This document shows, one piece after another, positions 12,269 to 35,970 of a DNA stretch of 64,000 nucleotides. The stretch covers positions 124,001-188,000 of the forward strand of contig NZ_JUIW01000005.1 in the NCBI RefSeq assembly GCF_004151245.1, in the 5' to 3' direction. The notes under the pieces are model-generated. The model was not told where the DNA came from and made no database searches. It worked only from the letters and a program-made list of their open reading frames with translations. The DNA is from Flavobacterium beibuense. GTDB taxonomy: Bacteria > Bacteroidota > Bacteroidia > Flavobacteriales > Flavobacteriaceae. The translations under genes and the position numbers were made by a program. Position 1 is the stretch's first letter. Every line of letters starts with the position of its first letter.

Positions 12269-12350
12269 GCGGGTGTGGTGAAATTGGTAGACACGCCAGA
12301 CTTAGGATCTGGTGCCTCACGGTGTGTAGGTTCGAGTCCTATCACCCGCA
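12269..12350 (+). tRNA. tRNA-Leu (anticodon UAG), copy 1
   Basis: 82 bases with acceptor stem GCGGGTG/CACCCGC and discriminator A. The anticodon loop CTTAGGA sits between CCAGA and TCTGG, giving anticodon TAG (reads CUN codons). There is a class II variable arm (TGCCTCACGGTGTGTA) and a T-loop GGTTCGAGTCC. CCA is not fully encoded. The mature sequence is identical to the copy 260 bases downstream. Confidence 0.97.
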
Positions 12351-12528: not shown

Positions 12529-12610
12529 GCGGGTGTGGTGAAATTGGTAGACACGCCAGACTTAGGATCTGGTGCCTCACGGTGTGTAGGTTCGAGTCCT
12601 ATCACCCGCA
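12529..12610 (+). tRNA. tRNA-Leu (anticodon UAG), copy 2
   Basis: 82 bases, identical to copy 1 over the whole tRNA and with a closely similar 5' leader and terminator. This is a tandem gene duplication with a 260-base repeat unit that kept its own promoter and terminator. Confidence 0.97.
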
Positions 12611-30087: not shown

Positions 30088-30158
30088 TGGTCTATGGTGT
30101 AATGGTAACACTACTGATTTTGGTTCAGTCATTCTAGGTTCGAGTCCTAGTAGACCAA
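30088..30158 (+). tRNA. tRNA-Gln (anticodon UUG)
   Basis: 71 bases with acceptor stem TGGTCTA/TAGACCA and discriminator A. The anticodon loop TTTTGGT lies between ACTGA and TCAGT, giving anticodon TTG. A T-arm with GGTTCGAGTCC follows. CCA is not encoded. Its own promoter and terminator flank it. Confidence 0.97.
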
Positions 30159-30160
30159 CA

Positions 30161-30195
30161 AAAAGCCTCTCAGATTCTGAGAGGCTTTTTTTATT
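30161..30195 (+). terminator. Terminator after tRNA-Gln
   Basis: AAAGCCTCTCAGA-ttc-TCTGAGAGGCTTT stem followed by TTTT. Confidence 0.9.
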
Positions 30196-30277: not shown

Positions 30278-31126
30278 TTATATTTTAAAGGTAACAACCG
30301 GTCTTACTGCGTGATTAACCAAATCTTCGCTGATACTTCCGTTAAAGAAGTGGGCAAGTCCCTGTCTTCCGTGTGTGCACATACCTATAAGGTCTGCATT
30401 TACTTTGTTTGAGAAGTGAAGAATTCCTTTCTCAACATTAATATCATTATATATATGTGTAGTATATCCGTTCTTAATATTTGCCTCAGCAGCAAAGTCA
30501 TGAATCAGTTTTTCTGCTGCGTGCGTAGATTTAAAATCGTTTGGAGTATTTACAAATACCAAGTGCAGGTTAGCGTCAAAAGCATTTGCAAATGCTACTA
30601 CATCTTTAAATGGTTTTTTGATTTCGCTTGAGAAGTCAGATGCAAATACAAAGTTTTGCGGGTTGAAATCACCTTCTTCTTTTTTAATAACAAGTACAGG
30701 GATGTCTGATGTACGAACTACTTTCTCGGTGTTAGATCCAATAAACATTTCTCTGAAACCACTAGCTCCGTGAGAACCCATTACAACAAGGTCGATGTTG
30801 TGTTTTTTGCTGTGAGATATAATACCGTCAAAAGCTTTTTCAAACTGTATAGCTTCAACTATGTTTATTCCCTGCAGGTATGGCTCGTTTAGCACTTCCT
30901 GAAAACGCTCGCGTGTTTTTTCCATAAAGAACATAACTTCAGGAATGTCGCTGCTGCTGCCTACTGCGTTACTTTCTCCAATACCGTCGTTGCTAATGTG
31001 AGACGGCATTTCAAGCATGTGTAAAAGGTATATCTCGCCATTGTTTTTGCGTGCAATTTGTGCGGCAACCTTTAGGGCATACTCGGCGTGATCAGAGAAG
31101 TCGGTAGGAACTAAAATTCTTTTCAT
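30278..31126 (-). CDS. Universal stress protein with two tandem UspA domains
   Basis: 282 residues containing two UspA domains of about 140 residues each. The first begins MKRILVPTDFSDHAEYALKV and ends with the ATP-binding-type loop VMGSHGASGFREMFIGSNTEKV. The second begins FVFASDFSSEIK and ends with GMCTHGRQGLAHFFNGSISEDL. The G-x2-G-x9-G(S/T) nucleotide motif is complete in domain 1 (GSHGASGF...GSNT) and plausible in domain 2. A cytoplasmic stress protein; precise role unknown. It is transcribed alone and divergently from the rimP operon. Confidence 0.93.
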   Translation of the reverse strand: MKRILVPTDFSDHAEYALKVAAQIARKNNGEIYLLHMLEMPSHISNDGIGESNAVGSSSDIPEVMFFMEKTRERFQEVLNEPYLQGINIVEAIQFEKAFDGIISHSKKHNIDLVVMGSHGASGFREMFIGSNTEKVVRTSDIPVLVIKKEEGDFNPQNFVFASDFSSEIKKPFKDVVAFANAFDANLHLVFVNTPNDFKSTHAAEKLIHDFAAEANIKNGYTTHIYNDINVEKGILHFSNKVNADLIGMCTHGRQGLAHFFNGSISEDLVNHAVRPVVTFKI

Positions 31127-31205: not shown

Positions 31206-31235
31206 TTTCAATATATAAAAAAATTAGTATATTTG
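31206..31235 (+). promoter_or_regulatory. Promoter of the rimP-nusA-infB operon
   Basis: TTTC (31206-31209), 18 bases, TATATTTG (31228-31235). The -7 box is exact and the -33 box is one base off consensus. It predicts a leader of about 55 bases. Confidence 0.65.
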
Positions 31236-31264
31236 CACAGTTATTTATTAAAAAACTAAATAAT

Positions 31265-31289
31265 GAGGGGACAGGAGTCCCCTCTTTTT
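31265..31289 (+). promoter_or_regulatory. Leader hairpin of rimP-nusA-infB (candidate attenuator)
   Basis: GAGGGGAC-AGGA-GTCCCCTC, a perfect 8-bp G/C-rich stem with a 4-base loop, followed directly by TTTTTA. It has the form of an intrinsic terminator but sits between promoter and start codon, ending about 9 bases before the rimP ATG. It could stop transcription early or mask initiation. NusA, encoded downstream, acts on exactly such hairpins. Confidence 0.65.
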
Positions 31290-31297
31290 ATACGAAT

Positions 31298-31762
31298 ATG
31301 ACATTTAAAGAGAAAGTTGCTGAACTGGTGAACATAGCGCTGGAAGAGCGCCCTTCACTGTTTCTTATAGATCTTTCCATAAGCGATTCTAACAAAATAA
31401 GTGTTATACTGGATGGTGATAATGGTGTAAACCTGCAGGACTGTATTGATGTTAGCAGGGCGGTAGAGCATAACCTTGACAGGGAAGAACAGGATTTTTC
31501 ACTTGAGGTGGCTTCGGCCGGTGCAACCAGTCCATTAAAAAATATCAGACAGTATAGAAAAAATCTTGGAAGGACGCTTAAGGTGAAAACCGCACATGAA
31601 GAAATCGAGGCAAAATTAACCGATGCCAACGACGAGCATATTGTGCTGGAATGGAAGGCAAGAGAACCTAAGAAAGTAGGTAAAGGGAAAGAAACCGTTG
31701 AGAAAAAAGCGGAAATTCCTTATGGAGACATAAAAGAAGCAGTTGTTGTAATAAAATTTTAA
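31298..31762 (+). CDS. rimP: Ribosome maturation factor RimP
   Basis: 154 residues, normal length. The N-terminal domain ([34 protein letters not shown]) and the [13 protein letters not shown] signature followed by an Sm-like C-terminal domain identify RimP, needed for 30S subunit maturation. The usual SPGL of the signature (VSSPGLDRPL) is replaced by SAGATSPL, as is common in Bacteroidota. It is first in the operon with nusA 18 bases downstream. Confidence 0.93.
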
Positions 31763-31780: not shown

Positions 31781-33019
31781 ATGGAAAATATTGCATTAAT
31801 CGATTCGTTTTCAGAGTTTAAAGATGATAAGCTGATAGATCGTGTTACCCTAATGGCGATCCTGGAAGATGTATTTAGGAATGCACTAAAGAAAAAATAT
31901 GGTTCTGACGATAACTTTGATATCATCATTAACCCTGATAAAGGGGATATGGAAATATGGAGGAACCGTGTGGTGGTGGCCGATGGTGAGGTAGAGGACC
32001 CTAACCAGGAAATTTCCCTTTCTGAAGCAAGAAAAATCGAGCCTGACTTTGAAGTTGGTGAAGATGTTTCTGAAGAGGTTAAGCTAATTCAGTTAGGCCG
32101 CAGGGCTATACTTGCATTGCGTCAAAACCTTATTTCTAAGATACACGAACACGATAATACTAACCTTTATAAGCAGTTTAAAGACCTTATAGGGGATATT
32201 TATACGGCAGAAGTGCACCATGTTCGACCAAAAGCTGTAATTTTGGTGGATGATGAGGGTAACGAAATCGTTCTGCCTAAAGAAAAACAAATCCCGTCTG
32301 ACTTCTTCAGAAAAGGAGATAACGTTCGCGGTATAATCGAAAATGTTGAGCTTAAAGGTAATAAGCCGCAAATCATTATGTCAAGAACATCTGAGAAATT
32401 CCTTGAGAAATTATTTGAGCAGGAAATTCCGGAAGTGTTTGACGGACTTATTACTGTTAAGAAAGTAGTAAGAATACCGGGTGAGAAAGCGAAAGTGGCT
32501 GTAGATTCTTATGATGACAGAATTGACCCTGTAGGTGCCTGTGTGGGTATGAAAGGTTCAAGAATTCACGGAATCGTTCGCGAGCTTGGTAACGAAAATA
32601 TAGATGTAATTAACTATACTACTAATACACAGCTTTATATAACAAGAGCACTTAGCCCTGCTAAGGTGTCTTCAATCAAAATTGATGAGGATAAAAAATC
32701 TGCAGAGGTGTTCTTGAAACTAGAAGAGGTGTCTAAGGCTATTGGCCGAGGTGGTCATAACATTAAGCTTGCCGGGTTGCTTACAGGATATGAGCTTGAT
32801 GTTATACGTGAAGGTAATCTTGAAGATGAGGATGTTGAATTAACAGAATTCTCAGATGAAATTGAAGGATGGATTATTGAAGAGTTCGCTAAAATAGGAC
32901 TTGATACTGCAAGAAGCGTGCTTAACCAGGATGTGAAAGACCTTGTAAGAAGGACAGACCTGGAAGAAGAAACAGTTCTTGAAGTGATAAGAATATTGAA
33001 AGAAGAGTTTGAAGATTAA
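31781..33019 (+). CDS. nusA: Transcription termination/antitermination factor NusA
   Basis: 412 residues. The N-terminal polymerase-binding domain (MENIALIDSFSEFKDDKLID) is followed by an S1 domain (IYTAEVHHVRPKAVIL) and two KH domains (DPVGACVGMKGSRIHGI and SKAIGRGGHNIKLAG). The acidic C-terminal repeats found in gamma-proteobacteria are absent; the protein ends soon after the KH region with a short helical tail, the normal short form. It modulates pausing and intrinsic termination. The hairpin in this operon's leader is therefore a natural candidate for autoregulation. Confidence 0.96.
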   Translation: MENIALIDSFSEFKDDKLIDRVTLMAILEDVFRNALKKKYGSDDNFDIIINPDKGDMEIWRNRVVVADGEVEDPNQEISLSEARKIEPDFEVGEDVSEEVKLIQLGRRAILALRQNLISKIHEHDNTNLYKQFKDLIGDIYTAEVHHVRPKAVILVDDEGNEIVLPKEKQIPSDFFRKGDNVRGIIENVELKGNKPQIIMSRTSEKFLEKLFEQEIPEVFDGLITVKKVVRIPGEKAKVAVDSYDDRIDPVGACVGMKGSRIHGIVRELGNENIDVINYTTNTQLYITRALSPAKVSSIKIDEDKKSAEVFLKLEEVSKAIGRGGHNIKLAGLLTGYELDVIREGNLEDEDVELTEFSDEIEGWIIEEFAKIGLDTARSVLNQDVKDLVRRTDLEEETVLEVIRILKEEFED

Positions 33020-33072: not shown

Positions 33073-35970
33073 ATGTCTGAAGATAGAGTAATAAGAATAA
33101 ATAAAGTTTTAAGGGAATTAAACATTTCGCTGGACAGGGCTGTTGAGTTTCTTAAGGACATGGGGCATGCTATTGATGCAAGTCCTAATGCCAAGATATC
33201 CAACGAGGAATATTCGGCGCTTAAAAGACAGTTCTCTGCCGACCAGAGCAAGAAAGAGGCTTCTCTTGAGGTGAGTGAAGAGAAAAAGAAGGAGAAGGAG
33301 GCTTTGAGGCTGGAGAGGGAGCGTGAACTGGAAGAAAAGCGCAAACAGGAAGAAGAGAAACAAAGACAGGAGGTAGTGCGTGCAAAAGCATCATTATCAG
33401 GCCCGGTTGCAGTAGGAAAAATAGACCTTAATCCTAAAAAAGCTCAGGAAGAACCTTCAGACACTCCTCAGGCTCCAAAACAGGAAGAAGCACCTGCTAA
33501 AGCTACCGAAACTCCGGTAGCTAAGGAAGAGAAACCTGCCGAAACTCCTAAAGCGGAAGTTAAGGAAGAAAAAGCCGAAGAGAAAAAAGCTCCGGAGGCT
33601 CCTAAGCAACCGGAAGCGGAGAAAAAACAGGAAGCGCCTAAAGCGGAGAAAAAGCAGGAACCTCAGGCTCCTAAAGCTGAAACTGCAAAGACAGATTCTC
33701 CTGCTGCTCAGGAAGACGATAAGATTAAAACCCAATACCAAAAACTTTCGGGTGCCACTTTTACAGGGCAAACTATTGACCTTTCTCAGTTCAATAAGCC
33801 TAAAAAGAAAAAAGAAGAGCCTAAGAAAGATAACAGACCGGGCGGACAAAACCAGGGTCAGGGTAACAACAACAACAACAAAAACAAGAGAAAAAGGATT
33901 ACTACTAAGCCTCAGGGGCAAGGTCAGGGTCAGGGTGGACAAAACCAGGGCGGACAGAACCAAGGGCAAGGCGGTAACCGACCAGGAGGCCAGGGCGGAC
34001 CGAAATTTGGAAACAAAGATTTCAACAAAAACAAACGCCAGGCTATTGTTAATAAGGTAGAGCCTACCGAAGAAGAGGTTAAAAACCAAATCAGGGAGAC
34101 TCTTGAAAAACTTCAGGGTAAAGGAAGCAAATCTAAGGCTGCAAAATATAGAAGAGACAAGCGTGAAACGCACCGTCAGCGTACTGATGATGAACAAAGA
34201 CAGCTAGAAGAAGGAAGCAAAGTGCTTAAGGTGACCGAGTTTGTTACCGTAGGTGAGATTGCTACCATGATGGATGTGCCTATTACTAAGGTAATATCTG
34301 TATGTATGTCTTTAGGTATCATGGTTACCATGAACCAGCGTCTTGATGCAGAAACACTTTCTATTGTTGCTGATGAATTTGGTTATGAAGTAGAATTTAT
34401 TACAACCGATATTGAAGAAGCAAAAGAGGTTGTTGAAGATAAAGACGAGGATCTTGAATTCAGAGCTCCTATTGTAACGGTAATGGGTCACGTAGACCAC
34501 GGTAAAACATCGTTACTTGACTACATTCGTAAAGAAAATGTAATTGCAGGTGAGTCGGGAGGTATAACACAGCACATTGGTGCTTATGGAGTAACTCTTG
34601 AAAGCGGTCAGAAAATCGCATTCCTTGATACACCGGGTCACGAGGCGTTTACCGCGATGCGTGCACGTGGTGCTCAGGTTACCGATATCGCAATTATTGT
34701 TATTGCTGCTGATGACGACATCATGCCGCAAACTAAAGAGGCAATTAACCACGCACAGGCTGCGGGTGTGCCAATTATATTTGCGATAAATAAAGTAGAT
34801 AAGCCAACTGCAAATCCGGAGAAAATTAAGGAGAGACTTGCAGGTATGAACCTACTTGTAGAAGATTGGGGTGGTAAAATACAATCACACGATATCTCTG
34901 CAAAAACAGGTATAGGTGTAAAAGAGCTATTAGAAAAAGTATTATTAGAAGCTGAGATATTAGATCTTAAAGCTAACCCTAATAAACCGGCTGTAGGTAC
35001 TGTTGTAGAAGCCTTCCTTGATAAAGGTAGGGGTTATGTGTCAACAGTTCTTGTACAGGGTGGTACATTAAAAGTAGGAGATTATGTTCTTGCCGGTAAG
35101 CATCACGGTAAAGTGAAAGCTATGCAGGATGAGCGTGGTAATAATATTAAAGAGGCAGGGCCATCTACGCCAATATCTATATTGGGTCTTGATGGTGCGC
35201 CAACAGCAGGTGATAAGTTTAACGTGTTTGAAGACGAGAAAGAAGCTAAGCAAATTGCTGCTAAGCGTACTCAGTTACTTCGTGAGCAGGCTGTTCGTAC
35301 ACAAAGGCATATTACTCTTGCCGAGATTGGAAGAAGGATTGCACTTGGTCAGTTTAAAGAGCTTAACATTATCCTTAAAGGTGACGTGGATGGTTCGGTT
35401 GAGGCGCTTTCAGATTCATTCTCAAAACTTTCAACGGAAGAAATCCAGATCAATATCATACACAAAGGTGTAGGAGCGATTACAGAATCTGACGTATTGC
35501 TTGCTTCGGCTTCAGATGCGATTATTATCGGATTCAACGTACGTCCTATGGGAGGTGCTAAGCAGCTTGCTGAAAAAGAGGAAATCGATATCAGAAACTA
35601 CTCGATTATCTATGATGCTATTGATGATGTTAAGGATGCTATGGAAGGTATGCTTTCTCCTGAACTTAAGGAAGAGGTTACCGGTACTGCCGAGATTCGT
35701 GAAACATTCAAGATATCTAAAGTGGGTACTATTGCCGGATGTATGGTTACAGATGGTAAGATATTCCGTAGCTCTAAAATACGTCTTATCAGGGATGGTG
35801 TTGTAATCTACACAGGTGAGCTTTCTACACTTAAACGTTTCAAAGATGACGTTAAAGAGGTGTCTAAAGGTTATGACTGTGGTATGCAGATTAAAAACTA
35901 CAACGACATTCAGGTTTATGATGTTATTGAGGCATTCCAGGAAGTGGAAGTTAAAAAGACGCTTAAATAA
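33073..35970 (+). CDS. infB: Translation initiation factor IF-2
   Basis: 965 residues. The N-terminal IF2-N helix ([22 protein letters not shown]) is followed by a long disordered part rich in Lys/Glu/Pro/Ala (about residues 55-220) and then Gly/Gln/Asn (about 255-315). A second IF2-N-like segment and the GTPase domain come next: [15 protein letters not shown] (G1), DTPGHEAF (G3) and NKVDKP (G4). Domains II-IV complete the protein ([25 protein letters not shown]). It delivers initiator tRNA to the 30S subunit. It is last in the operon and followed by a strong terminator. Confidence 0.97.
33838..34008 (+). repeat. Gly/Gln/Asn low-complexity coding repeat in infB
   Basis: Imperfect repeats of GGxCAGGGx-type hexamers and an AAC run (Asn5) encode GGQNQGQG-like and NNNNN stretches in the disordered IF-2 linker. 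The unit is purine-rich on the coding strand, so length variation by slippage is plausible. Confidence 0.75.

Follow-up and report, generated by a model that had tools for sequence, protein, structure and literature searches.

A conserved hairpin and U-tract in the rimP-nusA-infB leader of Flavobacterium beibuense as a candidate NusA-autoregulated attenuator

The window analysed in this work, that is, the whole stretch of 64,000 nucleotides taken from contig NZ_JUIW01000005.1 of Flavobacterium beibuense (positions 124,001 to 188,000), contains the genes rimP, nusA and infB in this order, an essential operon that serves both transcription and translation, preceded by a leader in which a short hairpin and a run of T lie between the promoter and the rimP start. 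This hairpin has the form of an intrinsic terminator and, as it is conserved in the leaders sampled from the class Bacteroidia, it is a candidate attenuator through which NusA may control its own operon. The features of the locus, all of them on the + strand, are given below.

31228..31235, +, -7 promoter box TATATTTG, read from the letters and corresponding to the sigma-A consensus of flavobacteria (PMC9723704)
31240, +, predicted transcription start, from the box placed at -12 to -5
31240..31264, +, 5' AU hairpin P1 (GUUAUUUA / UAAAUAAU), lineage-specific, from folding and alignment
31265..31284, +, putative terminator hairpin P2, GAGGGGAC-AGGA-GTCCCCTC, with a perfect stem of 8 bp, from the sequence, a terminator scan, folding and paired substitutions
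31265-31272, +, 5' arm of P2, GAGGGGAC, from the sequence
31273-31276, +, loop of P2, AGGA, from the sequence
31277-31284, +, 3' arm of P2, GTCCCCTC, from the sequence
31285..31292, +, U-tract TTTTTATA, T5 (31285-31289) and then ATA, from the sequence; the T run is of 4-5 in 79/80 close leaders
31298..31762, +, rimP, match to NF002531 (E 4.7e-65)
31781..33019, +, nusA, the proposed autoregulator, match to TIGR01953 (E 6.5e-109)
33073..35970, +, infB (IF-2), match to TIGR00487 (E 3.4e-246)

Re-reading of the sequence confirmed the letters and coordinates that the original prediction had given for the -7 box, the stem, the loop and the T5 run. The start is predicted at 31240 because the TATATTTG box was placed at -12 to -5, the position assigned to TAnnTTTG-type boxes in F. 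psychrophilum (PMC9723704); the predicted transcript has GUUAUUUA as its 5' end and reaches the stem at +26, and 13 nt separate P2 from rimP. The loop AGGA, extended by one base into the 3' arm, gives the string AGGAG. The possibility that the hairpin is the terminator of an upstream gene was ruled out, since the neighbouring open reading frame (ORF; 30278-31126) is on the opposite strand and the hairpin lies 3' of the rimP promoter. A script found nusA 3' of rimP in 128 of the 133 loci with enough DNA and NusA was recognised by eye in the other 5, 103 further loci being too short to judge.

Judging from the comparison of leaders, the hairpin is strongly selected, for which its conservation is strong evidence and the terminator scan and the folding weaker evidence. 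Three sets of leaders were compared. The close set comes from the best 80 of 564 RimP relatives, mostly with Flavobacteriaceae titles plus a few metagenome-assembled genomes with other labels; L041 (at a contig end, with 18 nt upstream) and L085 (a duplicate of the window from the own genome) were left out of the set and the counts, and the 80 close leaders as scored are the window and 79 loci. The order survey found 104 genomes with RimP, among which 30 became loci, 60 were added and 14 stayed outside the sample, and the class survey found 108, which gave 66 scored loci (26 new and 40 added), 4 others overlapping with the order set and 38 staying outside the sample. The strict test asked for a TAnnTTTG box, for a stem of at least 5 pairs (at least 4 of them G-C) 8-60 nt further on and then for a T-rich tail, and the relaxed test is the same with a relaxed tail; in these comparisons gene starts were taken from the homology matches and control promoters come from one genome.

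The strict test was passed by 203/235 rimP leaders (close 80/80, order 66/89, class 57/66) and the relaxed test by 211/235, counts that do not represent independent events because many rows are close relatives. Among the other intergenic regions of the own genome that bear a TAnnTTTG box, 1/88 passed the strict test and 2 the relaxed one, and shuffling the stretch after the box gave 3/1175 strict and 19 relaxed passes. The absence of the stem from related species, which the original prediction had named as the outcome that would speak against it, was looked for and not found. A hairpin is present, by eye or by computation, in all 24/235 leaders that fail the relaxed test. In 19 of these failures, all from a single family (f5), the terminator-like hairpin has a longer loop and falls outside the limits of the script; L204 fails because its -7 box is off consensus, and L236 because of a stem mismatch. 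The f5 leaders (L091, L094-L098, L100-L105, L108, L109, L113, L114, L116, L118, L120) have a hairpin of the form AAGGC-N11/12-GCCTT plus six T and a common GATTTACGG block near the transcript start, and the folding of one of them, L096, yields an enclosing AU helix.

Base pairing in the stem can be followed in alignment A1, which holds 79 leaders (78 distinct; L036 was left out). For P2, 99.0% of the cells are paired and 4 of the 8 pairs are changed on both sides, giving the stem types GGAC/GTCC, GAAGC/GCTTC and CACGC/GCGTG; the outer GAGG/CCTC pairs speak neither for nor against pairing, because they hardly vary. Taking P1 and P2 together, the cells with a change on both sides are 96 against a shuffled mean of 32.6 (0/500 as high), and the paired percentage and the covariation score of both helices are also above the shuffles (0/500 each). 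On a tree of the RimP and NusA proteins at least 7 switches between the three main stem types are required, the tree being a quick one with 29/76 inner branches open, in which the strongly supported branches alone force 2 changes per type.

The predicted 53-nt leader (31240-31292) folds as two adjoining hairpins, P1 and P2, at -18.0 kcal/mol (z -4.1, 0/200 shuffles as low); for the segment 31242-31330, in which coding sequence is included, z is only -2.0 and 6/200 shuffles are as low. A simple terminator scan of 12 kb gave 15 sites versus 8.7 ± 3.0 expected, which is weak evidence alone. When the own genome was searched with covariance model R1, the rimP leader was the single strong site (E 7.4e-11; next E 0.13), and no second strong site that would indicate a regulon was found among the 150 of 2626 first-look candidates scored, a depth at which weak sites could escape.

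No antiterminator is visible, the consensus fold yielding the hairpin alone. P1 was considered for this role and ruled out: it folds beside P2 without overlap, and there is little or no excess of 5' structure in the order and class sets, in which the mean z of the 5' segment is -0.43 and -0.09, respectively. Besides, the 25 nt of 31240-31264 include one C in all, so this segment is unable to pair with the G-rich arm. In the alignment 81.1% of the P1 cells are paired, with the Muricauda-type rows poorly aligned at P1, and the mean z of the P1 segment is -2.25 for 49 distinct Flavobacterium-type leaders and -1.78 for 17 Muricauda-type ones. These two types of leaders have different sequences and a hairpin at the same place.

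The placing of the hairpin gives information on the process in which it may act. Among the 80 close leaders the TAnnTTTG box and the stem are 25-31 nt apart (standard deviation, sd, 1.3), whereas the spacing between stem and rimP varies over 12-129 nt (sd 26); in the 211 leaders that pass the relaxed test the figures are less tight, with sd of 5.9 versus 20.7 and a stem-to-rimP range of 10-129 nt. This steadier promoter distance points to transcription and not to rimP translation. An action of the hairpin on translation or mRNA stability without termination, for instance as a 5' shield or by controlling access to the rimP start, would agree with P1 and P2 forming a structured 5' end and with the hairpin ending 12-19 nt before the rimP start in most close leaders. 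However, a U-tract directly follows the stem in most leaders, and in seven close leaders (L051, L058, L067, L068, L070, L075, L077) hairpin and tail are intact with rimP 57-129 nt downstream, so that we consider this explanation very improbable. The effect on initiation that the original prediction had attached to the AGGAG of the loop finds no support in these seven leaders nor in the loops, since GGAG-like strings occur in 6/80 of them; on this count a Shine-Dalgarno sequence in the loop was ruled out.

An AUG exactly at the stem base (31263 in the window) was noticed in 75/80 close leaders, 24/70 of the order set and 2/61 of the class set. The frame of 12 codons that begins with it in the window runs to 31301, its stop overlapping the rimP AUG. 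It could be imagined from the frequency of this AUG among the close and order leaders, and from the stop overlap in the window, that ribosomes translating such a leader ORF are coupled to the terminator, as in leader-peptide attenuation. Yet the frames relative to rimP are scattered (24/20/32 of 76), 21/76 run without a stop in the stretch read, the stop overlaps the rimP start in 18/76, and the AUG is nearly absent from the class set, which makes this explanation scarcely credible; a leader peptide was ruled out, the frame and the length of the ORF being scattered. As the AUG is in frame with rimP in 24/76, it could mislead gene callers.

The shortest leaders are seven from family f7 (L129, L135, L136, L137, L145, L152, L157), in which the stem begins 10-12 nt after the -7 box, at about +7 to +9, and termination would fall near +34. 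With this spacing there is no upstream room for an aptamer, an antiterminator or a leader peptide.

The hairpin can be compared with the ordinary terminators of the same genome, represented by 85 gene-end terminators drawn from the window together with 400 kb of the own genome; the stem and loop limits of the two sets were slightly different, and many genomes contributed to the leaders. A 5' arm with GGG facing a 3' arm with CCC occurs in 195/211 leaders versus 9/85 gene-end terminators, and GGGGAC in 0/85 of the latter. AAA directly before the stem is found in 10/211 leaders versus 50/85, and at least 6 consecutive T in 28/211 versus 40/85. T occupies positions 6 and 8 past the stem in 25% and 1% of the 80 close leaders versus 73% and 63% of the gene-end terminators.

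These data bear on another explanation, in which the operon owes its basal level to a fixed partial terminator, one that responds to the general state of the polymerase (nucleoside triphosphates, NusG, pausing) without being a NusA sensor. The promoter-proximal placing and the fact that neither an antiterminator nor a ligand site is visible would suit it, as would the observation that intrinsic terminators of B. subtilis are acted on by NusG as well as by NusA, with distal interruptions of the U-tract in both kinds. We regard it as unlikely, because the G-rich/C-rich sequence itself is kept over the sampled class in the proportion just given (195/211) and because the hairpin is found before nusA in 12/18 genomes without detectable RimP.

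Among the genomes listed by the surveys, 31 without a RimP match were searched for NusA (24 further ones lie outside this listing), and in 25 of them the NusA match exceeded the cut-off; 7 loci were then left out because nusA was cut or at a contig end, which leaves 18. RimP was detected in 0/18 of these genomes by NF002531 and by PF02576 (RimP_N), with NusA present; completeness is 90% or more and contamination 5% or less in 12/18. With a looser test, which 1/88 promoters of the own genome pass, a hairpin with a T-tail was found between the TAnnTTTG box and nusA in 12/18 loci (L269, L270, L271, L273-L279, L281, L287), from five families. The element thus follows nusA (or infB) and not rimP, and on these sequence data RimP is unlikely as the reason for the hairpin or as its effector, with NusA or IF2 as the candidates instead. 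Two loci, L290 and L291, come from genomes of about 0.3-0.5 Mb without RimP, and a leader hairpin before nusA was not found in them.

The hairpin might also be the target of another product or signal, such as IF2, a ribosomal protein or a cold-shock protein, that controls termination. The conserved stem sequence would fit with a target of this kind, and so would infB, which lies 3' of nusA in 18/18 of the loci without RimP. On the other hand, the loop is variable, little RNA is left outside the hairpin where the stem is 10-12 nt from the box, and RimP, another possible effector, is unlikely given that the hairpin is kept in genomes without detectable RimP. We therefore think that control by another effector is improbable.

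The explanation that we favour, and that we hold to be probable, is that the leader contains a promoter-proximal intrinsic terminator working as a NusA-autoregulated attenuator without an antiterminator. That a leader terminator attenuates the operon, as already put forward in the original prediction, is well supported. As for the factor, we infer that it is NusA, which would fit the precedents. The interrupted U-tract would suit NusA as well, as would the hairpin kept before nusA in 12/18 loci without RimP and the fact that no antiterminator is visible. RNA polymerase would start near 31240 and, on arriving at the short interrupted U-tract, would have the hairpin 31265-31284 already formed in its exit channel. 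Some polymerases would stop near 31291-31293, 7-9 nt past the hairpin, and the RNA presumably released would be about 52-54 nt long. NusA bound to the polymerase would stabilise the hairpin and the pause and increase the stopped fraction, and when NusA is scarce more read-through into rimP-nusA-infB would be expected. The outcome would be a negative feedback on NusA in which RimP and IF2 are carried along, and the overall design may be described as a strong hairpin over a weak U-tract.

Several observations weigh against this explanation, or against parts of its evidence. NusA-dependent terminators are reported (Mondal 2016) to have often weak hairpins, unlike the strong one of this leader. 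Outside the close relatives (class set) interruption of the U-tract is not uniform. In B. subtilis distal interruptions were named for NusA-dependent terminators and are frequent in NusG-dependent ones too, so the trait is not specific to NusA, which lowers our confidence slightly. Not all covariation measures exceed the shuffles: for both helices the pairs changed on both sides are 8 against a mean of 6.5 (114/500 reach this value) and the further pair types 20 against 19.0 (197/500), with no excess in either case. Three of the leaders failing the relaxed test (L179, L181, L213) have their U's paired into the stem, and a T-rich stretch after it is absent. Among the loci without RimP, six of the 12 passing ones come from one family; in L269 and L270 the stem is 51-52 nt from the box and has 10-11-nt loops; and 6/18 fail the looser test, one of them (L268) with a hairpin that is clear by eye and a paired U run, and the other five (L267, L272, L280, L290, L291) with a hairpin before nusA that is absent or unconvincing. 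Moreover, 6/18 of these genomes are less than 90% complete or more than 5% contaminated, and RimP may be missed there. Finally, as infB comes after nusA in every one of these loci, synteny cannot separate NusA from IF2.

A more specific version of the NusA-autoregulated attenuator is that it works as a timed sensor of NusA loading just after promoter escape, at about the departure of sigma, and not of total NusA. This is speculative and we hold it to be doubtful. If it were true, the short and narrowly kept distance from the start to the stem (about +7 to +28 in most lineages) would be the measure, and the G-rich 5' arm would be tuned to the early complex.

A search of the window with Rfam returned only three tRNAs at the gathering cut-off. 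Rfam family RF01770 (rimP, 102 positions) has in common with the leader only the name and the gene context: it gives no match there with E up to 5, and in the own genome none of its 127 sub-threshold rows falls at the leader (contig positions 155237-155292), with 150 of 967 first-look candidates scored. Weak matches to sraA, SraG and BTnc060 at the leader were rejected, being far below the cut-offs and of the generic AU-plus-terminator kind. Elsewhere in the window, two tRNA genes (12269-12350 and 12529-12610) lie 260 bases apart with equal Rfam score, and behind a third tRNA gene (30088-30158) there is a strong terminator-like site on + (30160-30190), while another one on - (30259-30232) faces the gene.

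Attenuators in the rimP leader are already known as predictions. Naville and Gautheret 2010 (PMC2965389) predicted them and proposed NusA as the factor, naming Firmicutes and Gammaproteobacteria; neither of the strings Bacteroid* and Flavobacter* occurs in its main text. The features in common are a short hairpin with a G-rich 5' arm and a C-rich 3' arm, a T-stretch before rimP-nusA-infB, no visible antiterminator, and a distance to the gene of 4-130 nt there and 10-129 nt here. Of the motif GGGc(...)gCCC described there, GGG/CCC occurs in 195/211 leaders and the exact GGGC/GCCC in 23/211; the window stem has GGGGAC/GTCCCC, and the commonest form among the leaders is GAGGGGAC/GTCCCCTC. In F. 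psychrophilum, Guerin 2021 (PMC9723704) listed a structured 5' element before rimP, present in other Flavobacteriaceae genera and without an Rfam hit, which is very probably the same element; in the parts of that paper considered here it is neither read as a NusA attenuator nor traced past the family. Among the open-licence papers listed on rimP leaders, in Flavobacterium, Bacteroides or Bacteroidetes as well as in general, no other analysis of the element was found.

The B. subtilis nusA leader is not known to have an antiterminator structure. In this bacterium NusA stimulates termination in the 5' leader of its own gene, which is autoregulated in this way (Mondal 2016, reviewed in PMC12288461). 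The presence of an intrinsic terminator in the leader of the nusA operon is common to both cases, but the NusA dependence was measured in B. subtilis and is inferred here, where a strong hairpin is combined with an interrupted U-tract. In another phylum, the rimP operon of S. agalactiae terminates 31 nt after the start, with RNA-seq evidence (PMC4448216), and its leader resembles the shortest ones found here.

The element is, then, of a known kind of attenuator, to which this work adds its extent over the sampled class, its tracking of nusA and the shortest leaders. The rimP-leader attenuator is extended to nearly all the sampled rimP leaders of Bacteroidia (by the relaxed test), and the genomes without RimP constitute a natural experiment that separates RimP from NusA or IF2 as the reason for the hairpin. 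The shortest leaders consist of promoter, hairpin and U-tract only, and NusA autoregulation can be directly tested with them in a phylum in which few studies have dealt with the transcription machinery.
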